Assembly (NCBI GenBank): GCA_029834535.1
Contig: JAQMWT010000036.1
Span: forward strand, 156,007-220,006
Reading direction: 5' to 3'
DNA: 64,000 nt
DNA from: Chrysophaeum taylorii
Lineage: Eukaryota > Sar > Pelagophyceae > Pelagomonadales > Pelagomonadaceae
Positions 53,256 to 64,000 of the stretch are shown here, in pieces. The number at the start of each line of letters is the position of its first letter. The first letter of the stretch is position 1. The position numbers and the translations under genes are program-made. The notes under the pieces were generated by a model. The model ran no database searches. It was not told the DNA's origin and saw only the letters and a list, made by a program, of their open reading frames with translations.

Positions 53256-53484
53256 GAACGGTTCTAATTACTACAGGGGGATTCTGTAAGTAAGATACTC
53301 CAAATAAGGCACCTGCCGACTTCGTTTCTTAAACCCTAGGCGACTGGCTGCCAAATTACCCAGCAGCAGCCCAAATTCGCCTCGTGCACTACCTACATAC
53401 ATACATAGTTTGTATACATTGTATACTTCAGGTTGACGATTTCGCCTTTTTAAACCTAAAGTCTCGGAACGCGCCAACGGCGCG

Positions 53485-54324
53485 TTAGCTGAAGTCGACG
53501 ACGACGAAGAACTCGGCACGTTGCCTCTCGGCACTGTCGAGCTTCGCGAGGACGTCCTCGGTGATGGTGATTTTGGCGGGTCCTGAGACGAGGCTGTCTT
53601 TGAAGGCCCATTCGTGCTGGCGCCAGTCGGCGAGGCTCGGGACATGGGAGGCAGCAACCCAATGGCCGCTAGCTGCGGCGGTGCCGATGGCCGAGCCGAG
53701 ACGCCAGAGGGCACCGCACAGGCGCGAATTTGCGAGGAAGCTGAGCGTCTCGACGAGGGCCCGCGCGTGGCCGCACTGGCCGTCGTTCTCGCTCGAGATA
53801 CGGTAGAGGCGGTAGCCATGCTTAAAGGCCAGCTCCACGAGGACCTTGCCGCTGAAGTTGCCCGTGTTGTCGAAGTGGTCCACCTGCGAGCGATGACACC
53901 TCGGCAGTGGGCACTGGGGAAGGGGCGTTACCTCCGAATGCATTCCGCTCGTTAAAACTTCGCTGTCGAGAACCTGCTGCAGCTCGCGCGCGGTCTCGAG
54001 CGTCTCCTGGACTGTGATGGTCGTGTTCACAGTGACATTTTTCAGGGCACAGAGTCCGCAGTCGTTTGAAATGCCGTGCGCCCCCTGGCGCGCGACGACG
54101 GCCCGAGCATCGTTGCCGCGGTGGAAGACGTCAAGAATGGCGAAGCGTACGACATCGTGGGGGATGACGGTGACGTTGATGACACGGACCCACAAGACGC
54201 CGCCGCTATTGATGCCATTGGCGAGCCAGTTGCACCACCTGGCTTTGTTATCGACATGACGAGGGAGCTCGAGCACGAGAATGACATTATCGGCAAGCAG
54301 GTCCTCATTCGGCTTGATGCGCAT
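53485..54324 (-). CDS. ORF in TIR element, cysteine-protease-like motifs (tentative)
   Basis: 279 residues from the ATG at 54324; the frame is open upstream to 54576 only from a TTG. The motifs GISNDCGLCALKNVTV (Cys) and, about 100 residues later, GHWVAASHVPSLADWRQ with FKDS (His and a following Asp) come in the Cys-then-His order of papain-fold proteases such as OTU, Josephin or C19 families. In Ulp1/C48 the order is His-Asp-Cys, so that family fits less well. QCGHARALVETLSFLANS lies between. Such proteases are often carried by mobile elements. The plus strand is also open over 54076-54648, so which strand is coding in that part is uncertain. Confidence 0.4.
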   Translation of the reverse strand: MRIKPNEDLLADNVILVLELPRHVDNKARWCNWLANGINSGGVLWVRVINVTVIPHDVVRFAILDVFHRGNDARAVVARQGAHGISNDCGLCALKNVTVNTTITVQETLETARELQQVLDSEVLTSGMHSEVTPLPQCPLPRCHRSQVDHFDNTGNFSGKVLVELAFKHGYRLYRISSENDGQCGHARALVETLSFLANSRLCGALWRLGSAIGTAAASGHWVAASHVPSLADWRQHEWAFKDSLVSGPAKITITEDVLAKLDSAERQRAEFFVVVDFS

Positions 54325-54648
54325 CCTCTCGAAGAGGCAGAGTACGGTTGGTACTACGGCACGGTAGCTCGCCGAATGAATGGCGCGGCCTTCGTGCGAT
54401 TCACAGGAGCCGAGACGAATGGTGTTGTCCCGCTGTGCTACAAGGGCGAGGCTAAGACCAAGGCCAATGCCAAAACTTGCCGGACGAACGAAGACCCTCA
54501 AGTCGAGGTCCGGTGCTGTTTGAACCCGCGCTCTCGCGGCGAGACTTGGTGCCTCCTCGCTCCTGTCTTGAGCCAAGTCTCCTTTTTTTCAATGCCACTC
54601 CACCTTGATGTCCCCACGACATCTTTCCCCTTGCATCTTGCTTCTTGA
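54076..54648 (+). CDS. Alternative plus-strand ORF in TIR element (Tudor/chromo-like texture)
   Basis: This frame reads DDTDPQDAAAIDAIGEP, PPGFVIDMTRELEHENDI, IGKQVLIRLDAHPLEEAEYG and WYYGTVARRMNGAAFVRFTG, a pattern seen in small beta-barrel modules of transposon proteins. It overlaps the minus-strand ORF, and only one is likely to be real at each position. There is no family match strong enough to name. Confidence 0.3.
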   Translation: MRPLARDDGPSIVAAVEDVKNGEAYDIVGDDGDVDDTDPQDAAAIDAIGEPVAPPGFVIDMTRELEHENDIIGKQVLIRLDAHPLEEAEYGWYYGTVARRMNGAAFVRFTGAETNGVVPLCYKGEAKTKANAKTCRTNEDPQVEVRCCLNPRSRGETWCLLAPVLSQVSFFSMPLHLDVPTTSFPLHLAS

Positions 54649-54914
54649 CGTCCACCCCCGCAGTATATTTTGTGCACTCTTCCTACTCCGCTCGCTTGGT
54701 GACGCGGCTTAGAAGTGGCGCGAGAGAACATCGTGAATTATAGCGTGCTAAAAACTCATTGGTGCGTTTTCGTAGTACAAATTCGAACAAAATCGCCTCT
54801 CGCAACCTGCCCAGCGCGTCCAAAATCGCCTTCTGCCTGTCTTAATATTAGGCGACTTTCGAGTATCTTACTTACAGAACCCCCCTGTAGTCTAAGTGCA
54901 GGCGCCAGTAAGTC

Positions 54915-55817: not shown

Positions 55818-57353
55818 AACATCGATTTTTCGGGGCGTGAGAATGGCGCGCTGAAAGAGCCGCCGCGGGTCTTGGAAATAGTCTGCGAGGTCGACGTAAA
55901 CGACATTGACCTCAGCGTCTGGCTCGAGCGCTTACCTGAGCCTAAGCCCTGATTCTGGGGGCAAACCAAAAAACCACGCACATCATTCACATGCACTAAA
56001 CACATCCCCCCCCTTAGCAGTCGACCTTTTAAAGGCAGTAAGGTCGCACCCCAAAAATCGCCACTTTTTTTAAGGTCGCCCCCCGCAAGCAAAAATGTTT
56101 TAAAGCGTTTTAAAGGGTTTTAAAGGGTTTTAAAGGTCGCCCCTAAAATCCGTTTAAAATCCAATGTTGTTCCCCCCCTTTAATATCCATAACAACCAAG
56201 ATTAAAAGGGAAGAACAGGGGTAGGTATGGCGGCACAGAAAAACCTTCCCGACCCCCGGTTGACAGACAAAGGGGGTACTCACCGACTCGTCCTAGACCT
56301 CACTGAACGAAGGAAACACAGACGCGGGGTCGGATAAGCTCGCCGCACACCTTGCTCACGCTCGCCAAGCCTCTCAACAAGATGGAGAGATGGTATATGA
56401 TAGCAAGAATACTACAAGAATACAGCAAGAATGCTTCTCACAAGAGAGAGGTATGATGTCACTAAGAAGATGGGGAAAGGTGTCCCGCTGAACGGGTATC
56501 AAGCCTCGAGAGAGGGTGCAGAGAAATCTGCTGCTGCCTCTTACCCTTATCCGTCCGTTGAGAACGTGACCTCTTACTTACCCTTCTTCTTCCTTTCTAC
56601 ACAATCTAATAGTCCTCTGATTTGTGCCTACGCTCATCATCATGGTCTAGCGCGCCCCGAGGTATATAGCACTATACACTTAACCTTTCTCGTGTAGTTC
56701 TAGATGCCGCCTGTCGTGTTCTGAGGATATAGGGAACATAACCTTTCATTCCCCGAATTAACCTTCCAGACGTTCACGATGAGACGGGATGGTTTCCCAG
56801 GTGACTTACCACTGCTTGCTAAATGCTCTGCAGGTTATGGGCCCAGGCGGGTCCCTGAGAAACCATGTGTCAACATGCACGTAACCTATGGGTATTGGGC
56901 TGTTACCGCGCCAGCCCAGCCTCGCCATGTGACACGCTTGTCAATATATCGCCATTACCATTGGGCTGTATATAATATCTTTTTGCACACGTGATCGTGT
57001 AACCTTGTGTGCACCTGTTCATAGCATTGTATTGTCATGTCAATGTTGATGTGTGTGTAATTGGCTAACCTGTACTCTTGCACACATGTTATGGAATATT
57101 TTGGGTACGTCCACTCGTACATTCCATGGCAATGCACTTAACAAGCTCCTTGAGAGCACCAAAACTAACCAGCTGCCTGAGTGACTACGCTTAGCGACAC
57201 TACTCTGGACTCACAGCTTGCACAGTCGTCATATAGACACATTTTCCATCGAAAAATCGATGAGTGTACATAGACACCGACAGACAGACCCCCTTAGAAT
57301 GTCTAGACAGTGTCAACTGCGTGACTGAACCCACAGGTTCCCCGTCAACTGCT
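55818..57353. other. Low-complexity and AT-rich stretch, probable 5' end of next retroelement
   Basis: 55940-56200 is Pro/Lys-poor non-coding sequence with C-runs and the 56096-56140 tandem repeat. 56300-57350 is AT-richer with no convincing gene. It should hold the 5' LTR and primer site of the retroelement that starts at 57354, but its 3' LTR lies outside the window, so the ends cannot be fixed. Confidence 0.45.
56096..56140 (+). repeat. Short tandem repeat GTTTTAAAGGG
   Basis: The 11-bp unit TTTTAAAGGG(G/T) or TTTTAAAGCG is repeated four times in a row. Confidence 0.85.
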
Positions 57354-57899
57354 ATGGCAGAACACGCAGCACGAGCCGCACCTAAGGCGATCACAGGTGC
57401 GGATATATTGAAGCTCGAAGCTCCTGTAGTTGAGTTTCTTAATGAAGGGAACCGCTTTCAGCTTCAGAACCGCAAGGTATCCTTGCAAATCAAGCATATC
57501 AAGCAATTACTACGGTCCAGTCATGCCGATGCTTTCCTCGAGTACGACTCGTATGAAGCATATACTCGGTCATGCAAGGACTACGAAATCCTCCGGAATC
57601 AAATTCTCGATCGCGTTTTCCTGGAATGGAAGACCGATAGGGCTGCTGATCTCCGTTTAGCTGTTGATGAATTACCCCCTGAGTATCAGGAATGGCATTT
57701 CACCAACGAAGCTTTCCCCCACCTACCTGATGCAGAAGTAGCTCAGCTAACTACTGTCTGTTACGACTATGAAGTCAAGGCATTACGTCCTGAAATCAAT
57801 GCTCGTTTCTTAGAAGAGGAACGAATCTTAAATCGCGCGCACCCGAAGGCACTAGCTTTCGACACTCGTGTTCGTGCCCCGTTACCATGTTTTCGTTAA
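57354..57899 (+). CDS. Retroelement gag, part 1
   Basis: 181 residues from the ATG at 57354: MAEHAARAAPKAITGADILK, then helical, charged sequence (LEYDSYEAYTRSCKDYEILR). No zinc knuckle. The stop TAA at 57897 overlaps by 13 bases the ATG (57887) of part 2, which is in another frame. Position before a protease makes it gag; its sequence is not diagnostic. Confidence 0.65.
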   Translation: MAEHAARAAPKAITGADILKLEAPVVEFLNEGNRFQLQNRKVSLQIKHIKQLLRSSHADAFLEYDSYEAYTRSCKDYEILRNQILDRVFLEWKTDRAADLRLAVDELPPEYQEWHFTNEAFPHLPDAEVAQLTTVCYDYEVKALRPEINARFLEEERILNRAHPKALAFDTRVRAPLPCFR

Positions 57900-59074
57900 C
57901 TGCAGCTGACTGGCACACTTACCAGAACACGTACGCTACATTCTTGCATACTTACTTCAATCTTGAAAGTGTTGGAAAACCGGCACTTGCGGCCTGGCCC
58001 GCCATCAATGAGATATACAACAAAAGTTATTTACCCAACAAGGCTCGAGCTATTATGCTCATCGCCTTTAGTCACTACGAGTCTGTTACGACTACTGATG
58101 TGTCTTATTTGAAACAGCAATTTAACTCTGTTGTTTATAATCCTAACTGGTATGTCCATGTATTTATCGAAGCTGTCCTAGCATTTAGGCAAATCTCTTA
58201 CCAACTTAACCAGGAAGAGACTGACCTTCAATTCGACTTTGGCACTCTTTGCAGAAAAATCTATGAAGAGATACATCGGCATTATGCCGATAATACCAGC
58301 AACAACCGCTACGATCGTGGTTGGGTAGATTGGTGTTATATGTACGAAACCCGATCTTCATCTCGACCTGTACCAGAAGCTGAACGATTGTGTCACCCTA
58401 CCAACCCTAGCTACATTTTAGAATGCGCATTAGACCTTTACAATGTCGTATCAAATGGGTCGAACAACAGACGCTTAGAACGCCCTGTTTCTTGGCAACC
58501 CTATGTCGAAGGTTTATCATCTCAACCAAAGCCAAAGTTACTCCTTACACATACTTTGGACTCATCGGACAAAAGTCTGACTCAAACTGCTAACACACTC
58601 GCCTTCATCACTTCGTCCCAACCTGGTACATCTTCCACGTTTAATGCTAGACGCTTGCGTAACTCTAATGATGCTCGCCAGCCTTTCTCTCGCAGCGATT
58701 TATCGTATTATCGTCCTGGTGATTCTTACGTCACCAAGAAAACTGCCGGACAGTCCCATGACCGTCCAATTTATCCCCGCACTTTTGACAGGTCCTCTCG
58801 GTCTAACATGAAATTATTAGATCGAACAAGTCACACCTTAAACACCCTGCGAGAACAGTGTAGCGAACTCACGAAGCATGTGACAGATAATGATACCACG
58901 GCTCAGCTACAACATAATATCAACAAGTTATTTGAGACCTTGCTACAATCAGCCGATATCCTGTCAGCGACATCTACTGAGGACAACAGTAGTTTACTTC
59001 GTCTAAACGAACAGCTCATGTTTGCAGAAGACATCATTTATGATGTAGACGTTCATCTATCCTCGACCGAATAG
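57887..59074 (+). CDS. Retroelement gag, part 2
   Basis: 395 residues from ATG 57887. The N-terminal helical region (LTAADWHTYQNTYATFLHTY, AIMLIAFSHYESVTTTDVSY) resembles capsid-type gag helices. The C-terminal half is Ser/Asn/Arg-rich and disordered-looking. It ends at TAG 59072; the same frame continues open to 59410 (PQHHTVVTAPTPTTTPPTTN), so the TAG may be a nonsense change or a readthrough point before the protease. Confidence 0.65.
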   Translation: MFSLTAADWHTYQNTYATFLHTYFNLESVGKPALAAWPAINEIYNKSYLPNKARAIMLIAFSHYESVTTTDVSYLKQQFNSVVYNPNWYVHVFIEAVLAFRQISYQLNQEETDLQFDFGTLCRKIYEEIHRHYADNTSNNRYDRGWVDWCYMYETRSSSRPVPEAERLCHPTNPSYILECALDLYNVVSNGSNNRRLERPVSWQPYVEGLSSQPKPKLLLTHTLDSSDKSLTQTANTLAFITSSQPGTSSTFNARRLRNSNDARQPFSRSDLSYYRPGDSYVTKKTAGQSHDRPIYPRTFDRSSRSNMKLLDRTSHTLNTLREQCSELTKHVTDNDTTAQLQHNINKLFETLLQSADILSATSTEDNSSLLRLNEQLMFAEDIIYDVDVHLSSTE

Positions 59075-59337
59075 TCGTTAAACTACGTGGAGCCACAACA
59101 CCATACTGTCGTTACTGCTCCCACCCCAACAACAACTCCTCCTACTACAAACACACAGGGTAATCTTTCCACTACTGTGTCTAACCTCTTTACCGCTTCC
59201 GCCATCTCGGCTTTACCACCAGCATTATTGTCCTCGCTATCTTCACAGGTCCAATCTGCCCTCAACCTACCATCACAAGCCGAAACCAAAGGGATGCCGA
59301 TCACACTTCCCTATCGTCATTTGACGAAAAGCACGGC

Positions 59338-60126
59338 ATGGCTGATGAGGCTGACGAACCATCACCACCTGTTCAACCGATCATTATTCCAACGAATCTG
59401 TTATTGCTGAAGAACTTCTTTACAGCCAGCCTCTCCACTACTTGCCCACATTCGGAAAACGCCTTCCTCACCAACTACATGAAGGTAAACAGTGTCCCTC
59501 CACATTGCTCTTTTCTATATTTTGACTCTTGTGCTACCATCTCATTGATGTCCACCTACGATTTCGCAATACCCAATCATATAATTCCATTGGACTCCAC
59601 ATACGCGCCGATTGTTATTCAGACGGCAACAGGACAACAACGGGCATCACACATGATGTTAACACGCAACATCGTTATTCCCCTACCAGATCATCCACAA
59701 GTTGGCTATGTTAAGATCGACTTCGCTTTATGTCTTCAGCCAGTGCATGACCGACATCTCGCTATCCTGAGCATGCTCGAGTGGAACCAGACTAATCTTA
59801 CCACCGTGTTCAATGATCGAGCTGAGTCCAAGCTCAGCGCTGTCACGAGCCGCATAGACAAAGATGTACGTATACCCATACACTATGTAGCAGCTAATTT
59901 ACCCGCTCTCCCTTGTATCACTTACAACATCGCGCGCGACAAGCGGCTGGAACTTCGCTCCCTTGCATTTCCCCTCAAGCGATTCCATGAAAACAGGGAT
60001 CTACTGGCATACTACAATTACCTACTCCAACGAGTTTTACCAGATCGACCGTGGATTCGCCCTTTGGTTCTCAATCTTCGGAAACAAAACAAATTTGTTC
60101 AGCAAAATACGCAGCCAGTAACGTGA
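59338..60126 (+). CDS. Retroelement aspartic protease
   Basis: 262 residues from ATG 59338. FLYFDSCATISLMSTYDF carries the retropepsin active-site pattern (D-S-C-A-T in place of the usual D-S-G-A/T), followed by PIVIQTATGQQRASHMMLTR and LAILSMLEWNQTN, equivalent to the later strand of pepsin-like folds. It would process the Gag-Pol polyprotein. The Gly-to-Cys change at the active site is unusual and may reduce activity. Confidence 0.65.
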   Translation: MADEADEPSPPVQPIIIPTNLLLLKNFFTASLSTTCPHSENAFLTNYMKVNSVPPHCSFLYFDSCATISLMSTYDFAIPNHIIPLDSTYAPIVIQTATGQQRASHMMLTRNIVIPLPDHPQVGYVKIDFALCLQPVHDRHLAILSMLEWNQTNLTTVFNDRAESKLSAVTSRIDKDVRIPIHYVAANLPALPCITYNIARDKRLELRSLAFPLKRFHENRDLLAYYNYLLQRVLPDRPWIRPLVLNLRKQNKFVQQNTQPVT

Positions 60127-61860
60127 CTACTCTCACTTCCAGTGTTTCTCTCACAAGAGCCCAATCTCCGCAAACCCTCTGTCATGTTATTTTACTTTGT
60201 TCTGGTTTGTCAACTCCGGCGTTCCTGTCTCAAGCCACTAATGACTTAGGCTTAAATATCAATGTAAAAGTTGTTGTTGAGTCTGATGATACGCTTGTTC
60301 GTATGTTACGCCACCGTTTTCCTACTGTACTATTATTTGAATCTCTCCCCGCCTTTATTAACCATCTTCACCTAATCTCACCAGAGGAAAGGCGCACATT
60401 CTATTGTGATATAATTGAGATCACTCCTCCCTGCACAAACAGGAATTTACTAAAACAGCAAAAGTCAGAAGACTTACACAGCCTGCTGGACGATTCTCTT
60501 TTCGACAGCATGCTGTCTGTCATCAATCTACTCCAGCCCTTGGTGCTACTGGCTGAGATGACGCCTCCGCATAAGTACTGTCATCAAGACCACATCACAG
60601 TGGCCAACCTTATCTATACTACCCTTGATTACTGTGTCGATGTTGTTGATAGGTTCCCGACCTACCTATGTGGCGACTACCAATATAGAGAAAGGTGGAT
60701 ATGCATCGCACGCAGATATTCTACTAGACCAATTAAACTATCATCATGGCCCATCCTCCATCCAAAACATCACACAACTCCTACTTCTTAACTGGTGGCC
60801 ACCATTCCGACGGCGACCTCACCATAGAAAACGCCACCACAAAAAATTCCACTCGCATCAACGCCTTTGGGAGCACGTGTACGTTCACTGCTTCCGACAT
60901 CCCCCGCGACCGGGACAGGTCCATATATCTGGAGCCGTTTATGGGTTACTTGTGGATAGTCCAAGCCCTTCCCCAAGTTGGCTCCGCTACCACCTATGGC
61001 ACCCCTTCACTCACAACAGGCTCACGAGCAACGTACTCACTCTGTTCAATCCGAGTGTACTTACCATCCGTTGTGCTTTAAACGCTCCTCTATGGAGCCA
61101 TTACCCAATGCAACACATCCTATACACGTCAAGATTTTTACAATCCTCTATAACGTGTTTGCAAGCTTACATACTAACTCACCCACTCCTGTGTCCTATT
61201 ACATAACCGTTTTCGAAACTAACCAACCGTCACACAGGTTATTACTTACAACCTCATTACGCCCCTTCCTAAAGATCGTGGCTGATCTACAAGCTATTCC
61301 CAAGCGCCTTTGGCTACCTAACCACATATCCGAAGACTGGATCCGGGTGTTCCCCGATCCTCCATATATACCCGTTCCTAAAACGTTTGCACCTTACTCT
61401 CGCACAGGTTCTGTTCAGCTTACTATGGCTGACCTTGAATCCCTCAATATGTTACTAACAAGGATTCTCTTTTTGCTCTGGAAGATCATCACCTATCTCA
61501 TAGTCGCTATATAGGGTATCTTCGTGGAAGTGACCGCAAACTCGGCTCTAAAATCCACTCAATGCTTGCTCCATTGCCAACCGTCCGAGGGTATGCCAAT
61601 ATTATTTTACTCGACCCTCGCAACGGGAAATTACGCTACCCCACTCGACGGGAGTTGATTCGTGCTAACAACCACACCAAACAACAGGAATCTTTCCTCT
61701 TATCTCTACGCCATGACCTTTGCTGTGACATGCTCAGCAATGCCCTGCCTGCCGGTACGTACAGCACTCTGTACAAGCACCTTTCGCTCATCGTCGCCGA
61801 TATTAAATCCCTTATGTTGGACCCTACCTTCCAACATACTGCTGCCGTGACGAAGAAATC
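60123..61860 (+). CDS. C5-cytosine DNA methyltransferase-like domain inside a retroelement
   Basis: Motifs of the DNMT/Dcm family appear in order. Motif I is like HVILLCSGLSTPAFLSQA (about 60180-60235) and motif II is VVVESDDTLVRML. The PC catalytic motif IV is IIEITPPCTNRN (Cys at 60432-60434), motif VI LLAEMTPPH keeps the Glu of ENV, and motif VIII GDYQYRERWICIARR keeps Q-x-R-x-R (about 60673-60710). After a variable region in shifting frames (about 60790-61560) come motif IX/X-like GKLRYPTRRELIRANN and LSNALPAGTYSTLYKHL (SNALP for GNAVP, about 61730-61780). The first part is one open frame to 60791; the target-recognition region has frame changes, so the enzyme is either decayed or needs frameshifting. 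It would methylate cytosine in DNA using S-adenosylmethionine. Confidence 0.72.
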
Positions 61861-62179
61861 CTATGTATCCAATTTCATGACCGTTGACCAAGCCTCCACC
61901 ACGTGCAGCACAGATACCTTGTCTTTGGCACAATCTTTTATGATGTCTATTTCCAGCAACTGCTTGACCGAAATGTTGTTAAACTATATATCGTCGTCCT
62001 ACGAAGATACTCTCGTTACTCGTGATAATGAGGATGCACCTCCAAGTGACCCTGCTGTGCACAAGGATGACGACGCACCGCCTTCCCCTGCCTTAGACAC
62101 CGAACTCAAGTTCGATGTTCGGCGCAAACGGCACATTCCCGCTCATCCAATTCCTCGTAAGTCCTCGCACACGGATCCA

Positions 62180-63369
62180 CCGAATATCTCAATGCCAAAG
62201 AACGTGCTAATCGCTTTCACCGGGTGCATCACTGCCCCGACAACGTCGCTGCCAAGGCCCCCAACGTACTTGCTCGCCCTGGATTCTCTGCTTCTGACAT
62301 ACCATATCGCGACTTATGCACCGACTGCATCGCACACAACAAGCGCCACCCGCACAAGCATTTCAATGCGACCAAGCCTTCTTTTGAGCAAACCCACAAA
62401 GCCGGTGAAGTCTGGGCGTGCGACGGCGGCTATGTGACCATCCCATCCGAATGGGGAGGCTTCACACATATCATCGTCTTCAAGGAACTCATTTCGAAAT
62501 TTCTCTTGGTGTACTTTACACGCACCACCAACGCCACGGAGTTCACTCAAGCTCTGGATTTTGTGTATGACTTCTGTCGTACACAACTCAATGTGCACAT
62601 GCGCACCCTCTACTCCGATGCATTCAAGCCTTACTTTAGCCAGCACATTACCTCCCCGTACCGCGTCGATAAGGGCATTCAACTCATTGCCTTCCCGCCG
62701 TACATGCACCACTTTAACTTTGAAGTTGAGTCTGCCATCGGTTTCATCGCCTCCGCCTCCTCAACTCGCCTTCGTTCTCTCCTTAATGCTCACTATCGTG
62801 GCGCCAAGATCGTGGAACCCGCTATCATGTTCCCATGGGCGGTGATACACACCGTTCAAAGCTATAACCTTCTCCCGAACGCCACGCTCGAGCGCATTCA
62901 TCATGCTATTCTGAGTCCGCAACAGCTACTCTACAACCAACTCAGCACTCCCCAACACGATATGCTCAAGATTTTTGGCGCTGAATGTTACCTCCTATTG
63001 GAGCCCCATGAACACCACAAGTGGGAACCGTGCCGCCGCAAATATCTGTATCTCTGTTGCGCCAACGCACAAAACCCGCTCGTCTCCCCACGCGTCGACC
63101 ATCTCGCTGACGTCGTCCTCAACCCTGAAAACGGACAAATTCGTGTTTCGTCCAAGCTGCAATTCCTCTACATGTTGCAGCATCCTACTCCTGATCCTGA
63201 ACTAGCTCCTCCGCCACACGCTCCTTCCGCGCCTTTCTCGCTCACACCCCACACCACTATCCAAGACCATGTCATTCAGAGGTACAAGGACTCCTCATCC
63301 TCAGAGGGCACTCCCCTCCTTCAGCTCCTCCTTCTTCGTCCCCTACTCCGGCCTCTTCTCCTCTTCTGA
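62180..63369 (+). CDS. Retroelement integrase (copia-like)
   Basis: The zinc-binding pre-integrase is seen as RFHRVHHCPDN (frame upstream of 62224) with CTDCIAHNKRHPHKH. The core has Asp in VWACDGGYV, Asp in MRTLYSDAFKPYF and Glu in FNFEVESAIGFIA, a DDE-type triad in the expected order, then RLRSLLNAHYRG. The ORF continues with KIFGAECYLLLEPHEHHKWE and KYLYLCCANAQ, matching the copia integrase C-terminus (G-x-x-C/A-Y...KxxxGxFxG region), and a Pro-rich linker. It inserts cDNA into the genome. Confidence 0.8.
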
Positions 63370-63904
63370 CGCTACCGCCGACGAATCTGGCTCTATGTCA
63401 CCGCCGCCCTTGCTTCCTTCTTACAAAGGCCTTTTTGCACAAGATGACCTTATTCTTGTCCCAGGTTCCAAACAGCCTAACATCCGCAAGGCCACTTCTA
63501 TGAAAACTATCCGAGCCCGGTTACAAGCGTCTACTATTGGTGCTTACAAAGCCGCTGGCGGCAAGCTCGCCGATTTCCGCTGGGATCTTCGCCACCACTT
63601 TCTTACGTTCAAGTCTCCCGCCCTCTCCGCCCTTCATCTCCGTGGTGGTATCCTCTGGTCTGCTATCTGCTCAGAGAGGGAACATGCGTTTTTAGCTCGT
63701 CTTCTTCTCCCGTTGCGCACTGACTTACTTGCCCGCTACCCGCACGTCGATGGTTACTTCGCCCACGCCAAGTGCGCATCCAGCATCCCAGCTGCAACCT
63801 TTTTAACTGGTGATGGTTCACCTGCGTGCCCTAACCTTTACGTCCCTATTCTCAGCCCCTTTTATCTGCGTTCACTGAACACGCTGCTGCCTTCGGCACT
63901 TCTC
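63370..63904 (+). CDS. Retroelement linker frame after integrase, truncated by window
   Basis: In another frame than the integrase ORF, sequence stays open to the window end: ADESGSMSPPPLLPSYKGLF, KTIRARLQASTIGAYKAAGG, REHAFLARLLLPLRTDLLAR. No reverse transcriptase motif is reached. Confidence 0.4.
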
Positions 63905-64000
63905 CTAGGGGGGGGAGGACCGTGCGCGCACCGCCGGGTCCGGGCGCCGGCGGCCGGGAGCCTGCTGCAGCGCGCTATCGAGCGCGGAAATCACTGGGTG
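63905..64000. other. Abrupt GC-rich terminal segment after a G-run
   Basis: After CTAGGGGGGGGAGG, base composition jumps to about 75% GC (CGCGCACCGCCGGGTCCGGG). It does not resemble the element before it. It may be a junction with host DNA, another insertion, or an assembly join. Confidence 0.5.

Follow-up and report, generated by a model that had tools for sequence, protein, structure and literature searches.

Can a long terminal repeat (LTR) retrotransposon carry, as a standing part of its own Pol, an enzyme of the type with which hosts silence such elements? This question is raised by one end of the 64,000-nucleotide stretch of contig JAQMWT010000036.1 analysed here (the window), where the initial annotation placed a retrotransposon with a cytosine DNA methyltransferase (MTase). 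A retrotransposon with such a domain is still the best reading of the locus, and it is backed by three families of related elements (A, B, and C; the window copy belongs to family A). It is proposed that a clade of Copia elements took up a C5-cytosine MTase as a fixed part of Pol and would use it to methylate its own cDNA; for this explanation, taken as a whole, the probability is put at about 0.6.

The domain and the Copia families that carry it

C5-cytosine MTases are recognized by a series of conserved motifs, of which motif I, binding S-adenosylmethionine (SAM), canonically reads FxGxGG. In the window, such blocks follow one another on the forward strand in the order claimed in the initial annotation: motif I (VILLCSGLSTPAF, 60186-60224), motif II (VKVVVESDD, 60264-60290), motif IV (CDIIEITPPCTNRN, 60405-60446, with PPC at 60426-60434), motif VI (LVLLAEMTPP, 60540-60569, with E at 60555-60557), motif VIII (GDYQYRERWI, including QYRER, 60672-60701), a motif IX-like block (RYPTRRELIRANN, 61634-61672), and a motif X-like block (MLSNALPAG, 61730-61756). 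When the window domain is aligned to P0001, motifs I, II, IV, VI, and VIII fall in register at 28% identity. In all copies compared (37/37 in family A and 8/8 in family B), motif IV retains its PC. The E of motif VI is present in 36/37 A copies and, as ENV, in 7/8 B copies, and the QxRxR of motif VIII in 37/37 A copies. The E of motif IX is found in 27/28 A and 5/6 B copies, the N of motif X in 27/28 and 6/7, respectively. The tentative assignment of motifs IX-X follows from their order and from the similarity of these stretches between A and B (blastp E 1e-4, integrase excluded); taken by themselves against a DNA methyltransferase (DNMT) C-terminal profile they are not significant, with no match for A, a B score reached by 63 of 200 shuffles, and a C score reached by 7 of 200.

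The profile evidence comes mainly from sister copies. A profile built of 11 DNMT sequences (P0001, the host DNMT2 and DNMT5, and eight phage enzymes) gave 15.9-16.1 bits for three copies of family A, against 4.0 bits for the best of 300 shuffles, and 32.8-39.5 bits for three copies of family B, against 0.6 for the best of 300. Once family B was included in the profile, A copies reached 28.3-29.6 bits, the best shuffle 8.2. In PF00145 itself the family B frame scores 32.1 bits, above the curated cut-off of 22. That this is a C5-cytosine MTase-related domain captured in Copia elements is, judged by these comparisons, close to certain.

A search with the window domain returned at least 150 rows of family A, 75-100% identical to it, among 1081 candidates. 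In one of these copies (C42), a frame of 1691 amino acids runs from the MTase through weak integrase matches into the reverse transcriptase (RT) family RVT_2 (144 bits); the element spans 11853 bp, with LTRs of 316 and 313 bp that are 92.7% identical, and is flanked by GATAA/GATAG, a target duplication with one mismatch. Family B, represented by at least 150 rows in its own search, some of them fragments of one copy, includes an element (C96) in which a single frame of 1952 amino acids holds PF00145, a weak rve match (E 0.006), and RVT_2 (133 bits). Its 9625 bp are bounded by LTRs of 208 and 196 bp (89% identical, ending TAGAGA...TCTCTA) and by a perfect 5-bp target duplication, CTCAC/CTCAC. 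Family C (L091), with at least 150 rows, has the same MTase domain. RNase H gave no Pfam match in the open reading frame (ORF) after the family B RT; the end of the family C frame, read by eye, is RNase-H-like. Many rows share one score, 528.3 bits in at least 40 RT rows of family A and 397.7 bits in at least 17 MTase rows of family C, and such equal-score rows are probably recent bursts. Two side observations concern single copies: one of family B (L041, 957-1391) carries a tandem pair of 218-bp repeats (99.5% identity) between the LTR and the first long ORF, and at L092 (C344:77900-79100) a family-A-like LTR seemingly lies within the MTase of an element resembling family C, immediately ahead of motif VIII (by eye, unaligned).

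The linkage of the domain to RT recurs across copies. In family A, an RT row is listed on the same strand, 2.8-7.5 kb downstream, for 63 of the 150 MTase rows listed, against 0 in the control; the median distance is 4207 bp, and 41 of the 63 pairs lie at 4.0-4.5 kb. Taken from the RT side, the best 41 of 150 RT rows were compared with the MTase and IX-X rows on the same contigs (31/150 and 33/143, respectively), and 31 of them have an upstream MTase core (21) or IX-X segment (26); of the 10 unpaired ones, 3 begin less than 3 kb from a contig start. For family B, 48 of the best 60 of 153 RT rows are paired with a listed upstream MTase (150 rows; control 0), 44 of them at 3.6-4.7 kb. These counts, made among the matches listed, are lower bounds, and an unpaired row does not prove loss of the domain, although element copies without it are possible. 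The initial annotation had also made its proposal depend on the presence of the domain in intact copies; at the family level this holds, given the 1952-residue frame of C96 and the steady spacing between MTase and RT.

The families are deeply diverged. A and C are 46-50% identical by blastp from the region between motifs VIII and IX through RT, and RT identity is 35% between A and B and 34% between B and C, which places the between-family range on the RT side at 34-50%. From the late MTase through the integrase, A and B still match at 23% identity (blastp E 1.6e-19), and for the N-terminal core halves of A and B hhalign gives no significant match. A single capture in a common ancestor would be the simplest reading; since the N-terminal halves do not match significantly, two separate captures, in A and in B, are possible. 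That the domain has been retained across such Copia RT divergence speaks for its being of some use to the element. The median pairwise ratio of nonsynonymous to synonymous substitution rates (dN/dS) over motifs I-VIII is 0.15 in A (32/37 copies usable) and 0.13 in B (8/8 copies; dS up to 1.3). Within a single set of 31 family A copies, the MTase core gives 0.165 (28 usable), close to the 0.10 of the protease side (21 usable) and the 0.19 of Gag (17 usable). The MTase core thus appears to be under purifying selection.

Proposed role and its alternatives

The coding parts are arranged as Gag-protease (the protease by its motif), MTase, integrase, and RT. In family A, the MTase frame comes after a Gag-protease region that ends TGA-CTA, and 28 of 31 copies have TGA as the codon directly ahead of the MTase segment; it is proposed that the MTase-integrase-RT part is made there by readthrough of this stop. 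In family B, the MTase part and the protease region lie in one frame. The MTase would enter the particle together with integrase and RT and would methylate the newly made cDNA, probably at CpG, no later than at integration. The insertion would thereby arrive pre-methylated, and it could either pass as self DNA or have the upkeep of its methylation taken over by the host DNMT5. De novo CG methylation by retrotransposon DNMTs has been reported in yeast (PMC5890265; this and the other published sources are cited from excerpts of their text). In view of where the domain lies in Pol, of the constraint on it, and of this published activity, cDNA methylation in the particle is the likeliest role, one to which slightly less than an even chance is given; that the domain is catalytically active is rated somewhat higher, as rather probable.

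A number of observations, given in this and the following three paragraphs, qualify this proposal or weigh against it. At the level of the domain, the MTase ORF of the window alone finds no match in Pfam even at an E threshold of 10, and none of the 12 family A copies scanned reaches the PF00145 cut-off: in 11 of them PF00145 is the only family matched, the best E is 0.12, and the first member scores 11.4 bits. The PF00145 search suggested in the initial annotation is thus negative for the window copy and positive for the clade, through family B. As A stays below this cut-off, it is called a relative of C5-MTases, by the custom profiles, and B a member. The missing Pfam match in the window and the non-significance of motifs IX-X by themselves are also what would be expected if the motifs had arisen by chance in a broken repeat. 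This is very hard to reconcile with the profile scores against 300 shuffles, the conservation of the motifs, the dN/dS values, and the family B match above the cut-off within a Copia Pol frame, and it is considered extremely improbable.

A further point is the state of the motifs. In neither family is the SAM-binding motif I canonical: it is degenerate, reading CSGLST in A and AGGLHQEG in B; motif VI of family A has EMT in place of ENV, and motif VIII of family B lacks the Q of QxRxR. These departures would fit a catalytically dead domain used by the integrase or the particle for nucleic-acid binding or targeting, and purifying selection is also expected from a DNA-binding use of the fold. However, the PC of motif IV is invariant in the copies compared and the E of motif VI nearly so, and these catalytic residues have been kept although the core halves of A and B are too distant to align significantly. 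A dead domain is therefore regarded as unlikely, yet it is the strongest of the alternatives.

The selection data are themselves uneven. In family A, dN/dS rises to 0.30 in the IX-X segment (21 copies) and to 0.48 in the VIII-IX region (9 copies), against 0.15 in the core. In family B, the VIII-IX region gives 0.12 (4 copies), with one of the six pairs at 1.17 for a dS of 0.04. Target recognition may, on these ratios, be drifting or diversifying in A and not in B. It should also be considered that the copies used for dN/dS were picked by similarity and absence of stops, a choice that lowers dN. As to the stop junction, all 31 A copies have TGACTA intact, but the same holds for 106 of 484 nearby hexamer windows; of six more distant copies, four have TGACTA in the part covered and two lack it there. 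Conservation therefore does not single out this hexamer.

CpG content and published activity bear on the substrate. The observed-to-expected CpG ratio is 0.93-1.02 in the elements and 0.83 in the LTR, compared with 1.03-1.58 in other stretches and 1.03-1.15 in five other stretches with a GC content of 0.50-0.55; it is a small deficit with no clear depletion, and it does not decide the matter. The SymbioLINE DNMT, when tested, gave no DNA methylation in yeast, and RNA methylation was proposed for these enzymes (PMC5890265). By analogy, the MTase of the Copia elements could act on RNA, either genomic RNA or the tRNA primer, in the manner of DNMT2, which has the C5-MTase fold and acts on tRNA. 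The lack of clear CpG depletion would agree with this, as would a tree of 16 rows, containing no DNMT3 reference, in which A and C join the host DNMT2 with weak support (53/81) on long branches and show no supported grouping with DNMT5. The sole point against an RNA substrate is the placement of the MTase in Pol beside the integrase, which acts on cDNA. It is given a low probability, clearly below that of a dead domain.

The role proposed here, methylation of cDNA, also has to be seen against the methyltransferases of the host. In a PF00145 search of the genome (best 123 of 474 candidates scored), 55 of 57 rows belong to family B, and the remaining two are DNMT2-like (1g55, E 3.9e-39) and DNMT5-like (7r76, E 3e-143; deposited as Rad8, which we take to be DNMT5). 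The host thus seems to have DNMT5 and DNMT2 only; intron-split genes may escape this search. That the host is an ochrophyte, as suggested in the initial annotation, is supported without being proven by the DNMT5-like gene and by a red-type rbcL on contig C697 (103.6 kb), whose nearest PDB chains (7yk5, 5mz2, and 5n9z) are presumably those of diatoms.

DNMT5 is described from pelagophytes, diatoms, and haptophytes, with a role in maintenance (PMC9998398). As only DNMT2-like and DNMT5-like rows are listed by the PF00145 search outside family B, the elements could be a source of de novo methylation, and the hundreds of Copia-borne MTases might then seed the methylome of the host through CpG-marked cDNA that DNMT5 copies on; as the account of de novo methylation in this genome, this is speculative and considered improbable. 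A different use of the enzyme would be self-silencing, in which it methylates its own and related insertions and restrains copy number to the benefit of both element and host. In P. tricornutum, loss of DNMT5a leads to lower CG methylation and overexpression of Copia elements (PMC9998398), which is in line with such restraint. The shared scores described above, however, make families A and C look recently active, and self-silencing is considered a little less probable than an RNA substrate.

Comparison with known systems

Retrotransposons carrying DNMTs are known among LINE, DIRS, and Gypsy elements; what is new here is a Copia clade, found in an ochrophyte-like alga, whose MTase sits between the protease and the integrase. 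KnitGypsy-Dnmt3 of Klebsormidium nitens is likewise an LTR element with a cytosine MTase in its Pol ORF that is under purifying selection (Ka/Ks <0.2 for the MTase; PMC5890265). It differs in being a Gypsy element with DIRS-like repeats and an MTase of the Dnmt3 type (PMC5890265), whereas the present elements belong to Copia, have ordinary LTRs, and hold the MTase between the protease side and the integrase. SymbioDIRS-Dnmt3 and SymbioLINE-Dnmt of Symbiodinium are similar in their hundreds of copies and in the conservation of the MTase within the element, as they are in that the SymbioLINE MTases form an orphan lineage, but they are tyrosine-recombinase DIRS and LINE elements, respectively (PMC5890265). 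The Copia elements of Symbiodinium are, in the excerpted text, without any DNMT domain (PMC5890265). LTR Copia elements are named in one sentence of the excerpts of PMC12344493, which concerns streptophytes and dinoflagellates and enzymes of the DNMT3 type and cites PMC5890265; in its excerpts, however, this cited 2018 paper reports Gypsy, DIRS, and LINE elements. DIRS elements with Dam-like adenine methyltransferases (PMC5890265) also join a retrotransposon to a DNA methyltransferase, but the enzyme acts on adenine and is structurally unrelated. In Ectocarpus, a methyltransferase of the N4-cytosine or N6-adenine type has been described in a DNA transposon (PMC12477816).

In the literature searched, seen in excerpts and with subscription papers and Repbase outside its scope, no description was found of a Copia element whose MTase lies between protease and integrase. 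With the present elements, the short list of parasites that carry an enzyme of the host-silencing type gains another superfamily of retrotransposons and, probably, a third lineage of eukaryotes. Their sequences suggest that these elements may put on DNA the chemical mark by which hosts silence them.

The window copy and its surroundings

The copy in the window (56517-63906, forward strand, as are all its parts) is a Ty1/Copia-type LTR element, broken and truncated. It begins with a 5' LTR of 316 bp (56517-56832, TGCAGAG...CTCTGCA), delimited by alignment with both LTRs of C42, and the LTR is adjoined by a primer binding site (GGTTATGGGCCCAG, 56833-56846) that we take to be the complement of the anticodon arm of the initiator tRNA-Met. 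The Gag-protease coding region (57354-60126), interrupted in this copy, ends with TGA (60124-60126), followed by CTA. The MTase core with motifs I-VIII (60130-60765) is open, and its assignment draws on the profile tests of the sister copies. It is followed by the VIII-IX region (60766-61457), presumed to be the target-recognition region, and by the C-terminal MTase part with the IX-like and X-like blocks (61458-61850). Next come an open integrase (62224-63369) and the start of the linker between integrase and RT (63370-63906). Homology to C42 stops at 63906 and the contig ends at 64000; the copy is thus cut 94 bp before the contig end, ahead of RT, and only its 5' LTR is present. The longest two blocks that match C42 do so at 94.9% and 97.4% identity.

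The placement of the MTase between an aspartic protease and an integrase, as claimed in the initial annotation, is borne out on the integrase side, where SH3_retrovirus (Copia-type; 62947-63066, E 5.3e-5) and rve (62395-62643, E 0.0016) are matched, both below their curated cut-offs. The aspartic protease is putative: no Pfam match is obtained, and the motifs seen in the elements are DSCA (at 59524-59535 in the window) and DGGA.

Within the VIII-IX region, the segments of the window copy stand in the order d-c-b, not b-c-d. Among 31 copies compared (the window, C42, and the 29 best-scoring other loci among 150 rows), the order a-d-c-b-e is found in the window copy alone, on the same strand and with clean joints. 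The other 30 have a-b-c-d-e as far as they are covered, some of them gapped or broken, and one (L023) covered to c only. The permutation is a copying accident or an assembly error.

Apart from the element, positions 1-45000 of the window form a GC-rich host side with an observed-to-expected CpG ratio of 1.37, and the ORFs there include a kinase, ERCC4, TTL, glycosyltransferase 61, and WD40-Utp12. Between the two, at 53270-54891, an ORF lies between 35-bp inverted repeats (94%) that are 1.55 kb from each other. Its match to Josephin is weak (E 1.4e-5, 25.4 bits against a cut-off of 26), and the whole may be a DNA transposon that has captured a deubiquitinase-like domain.

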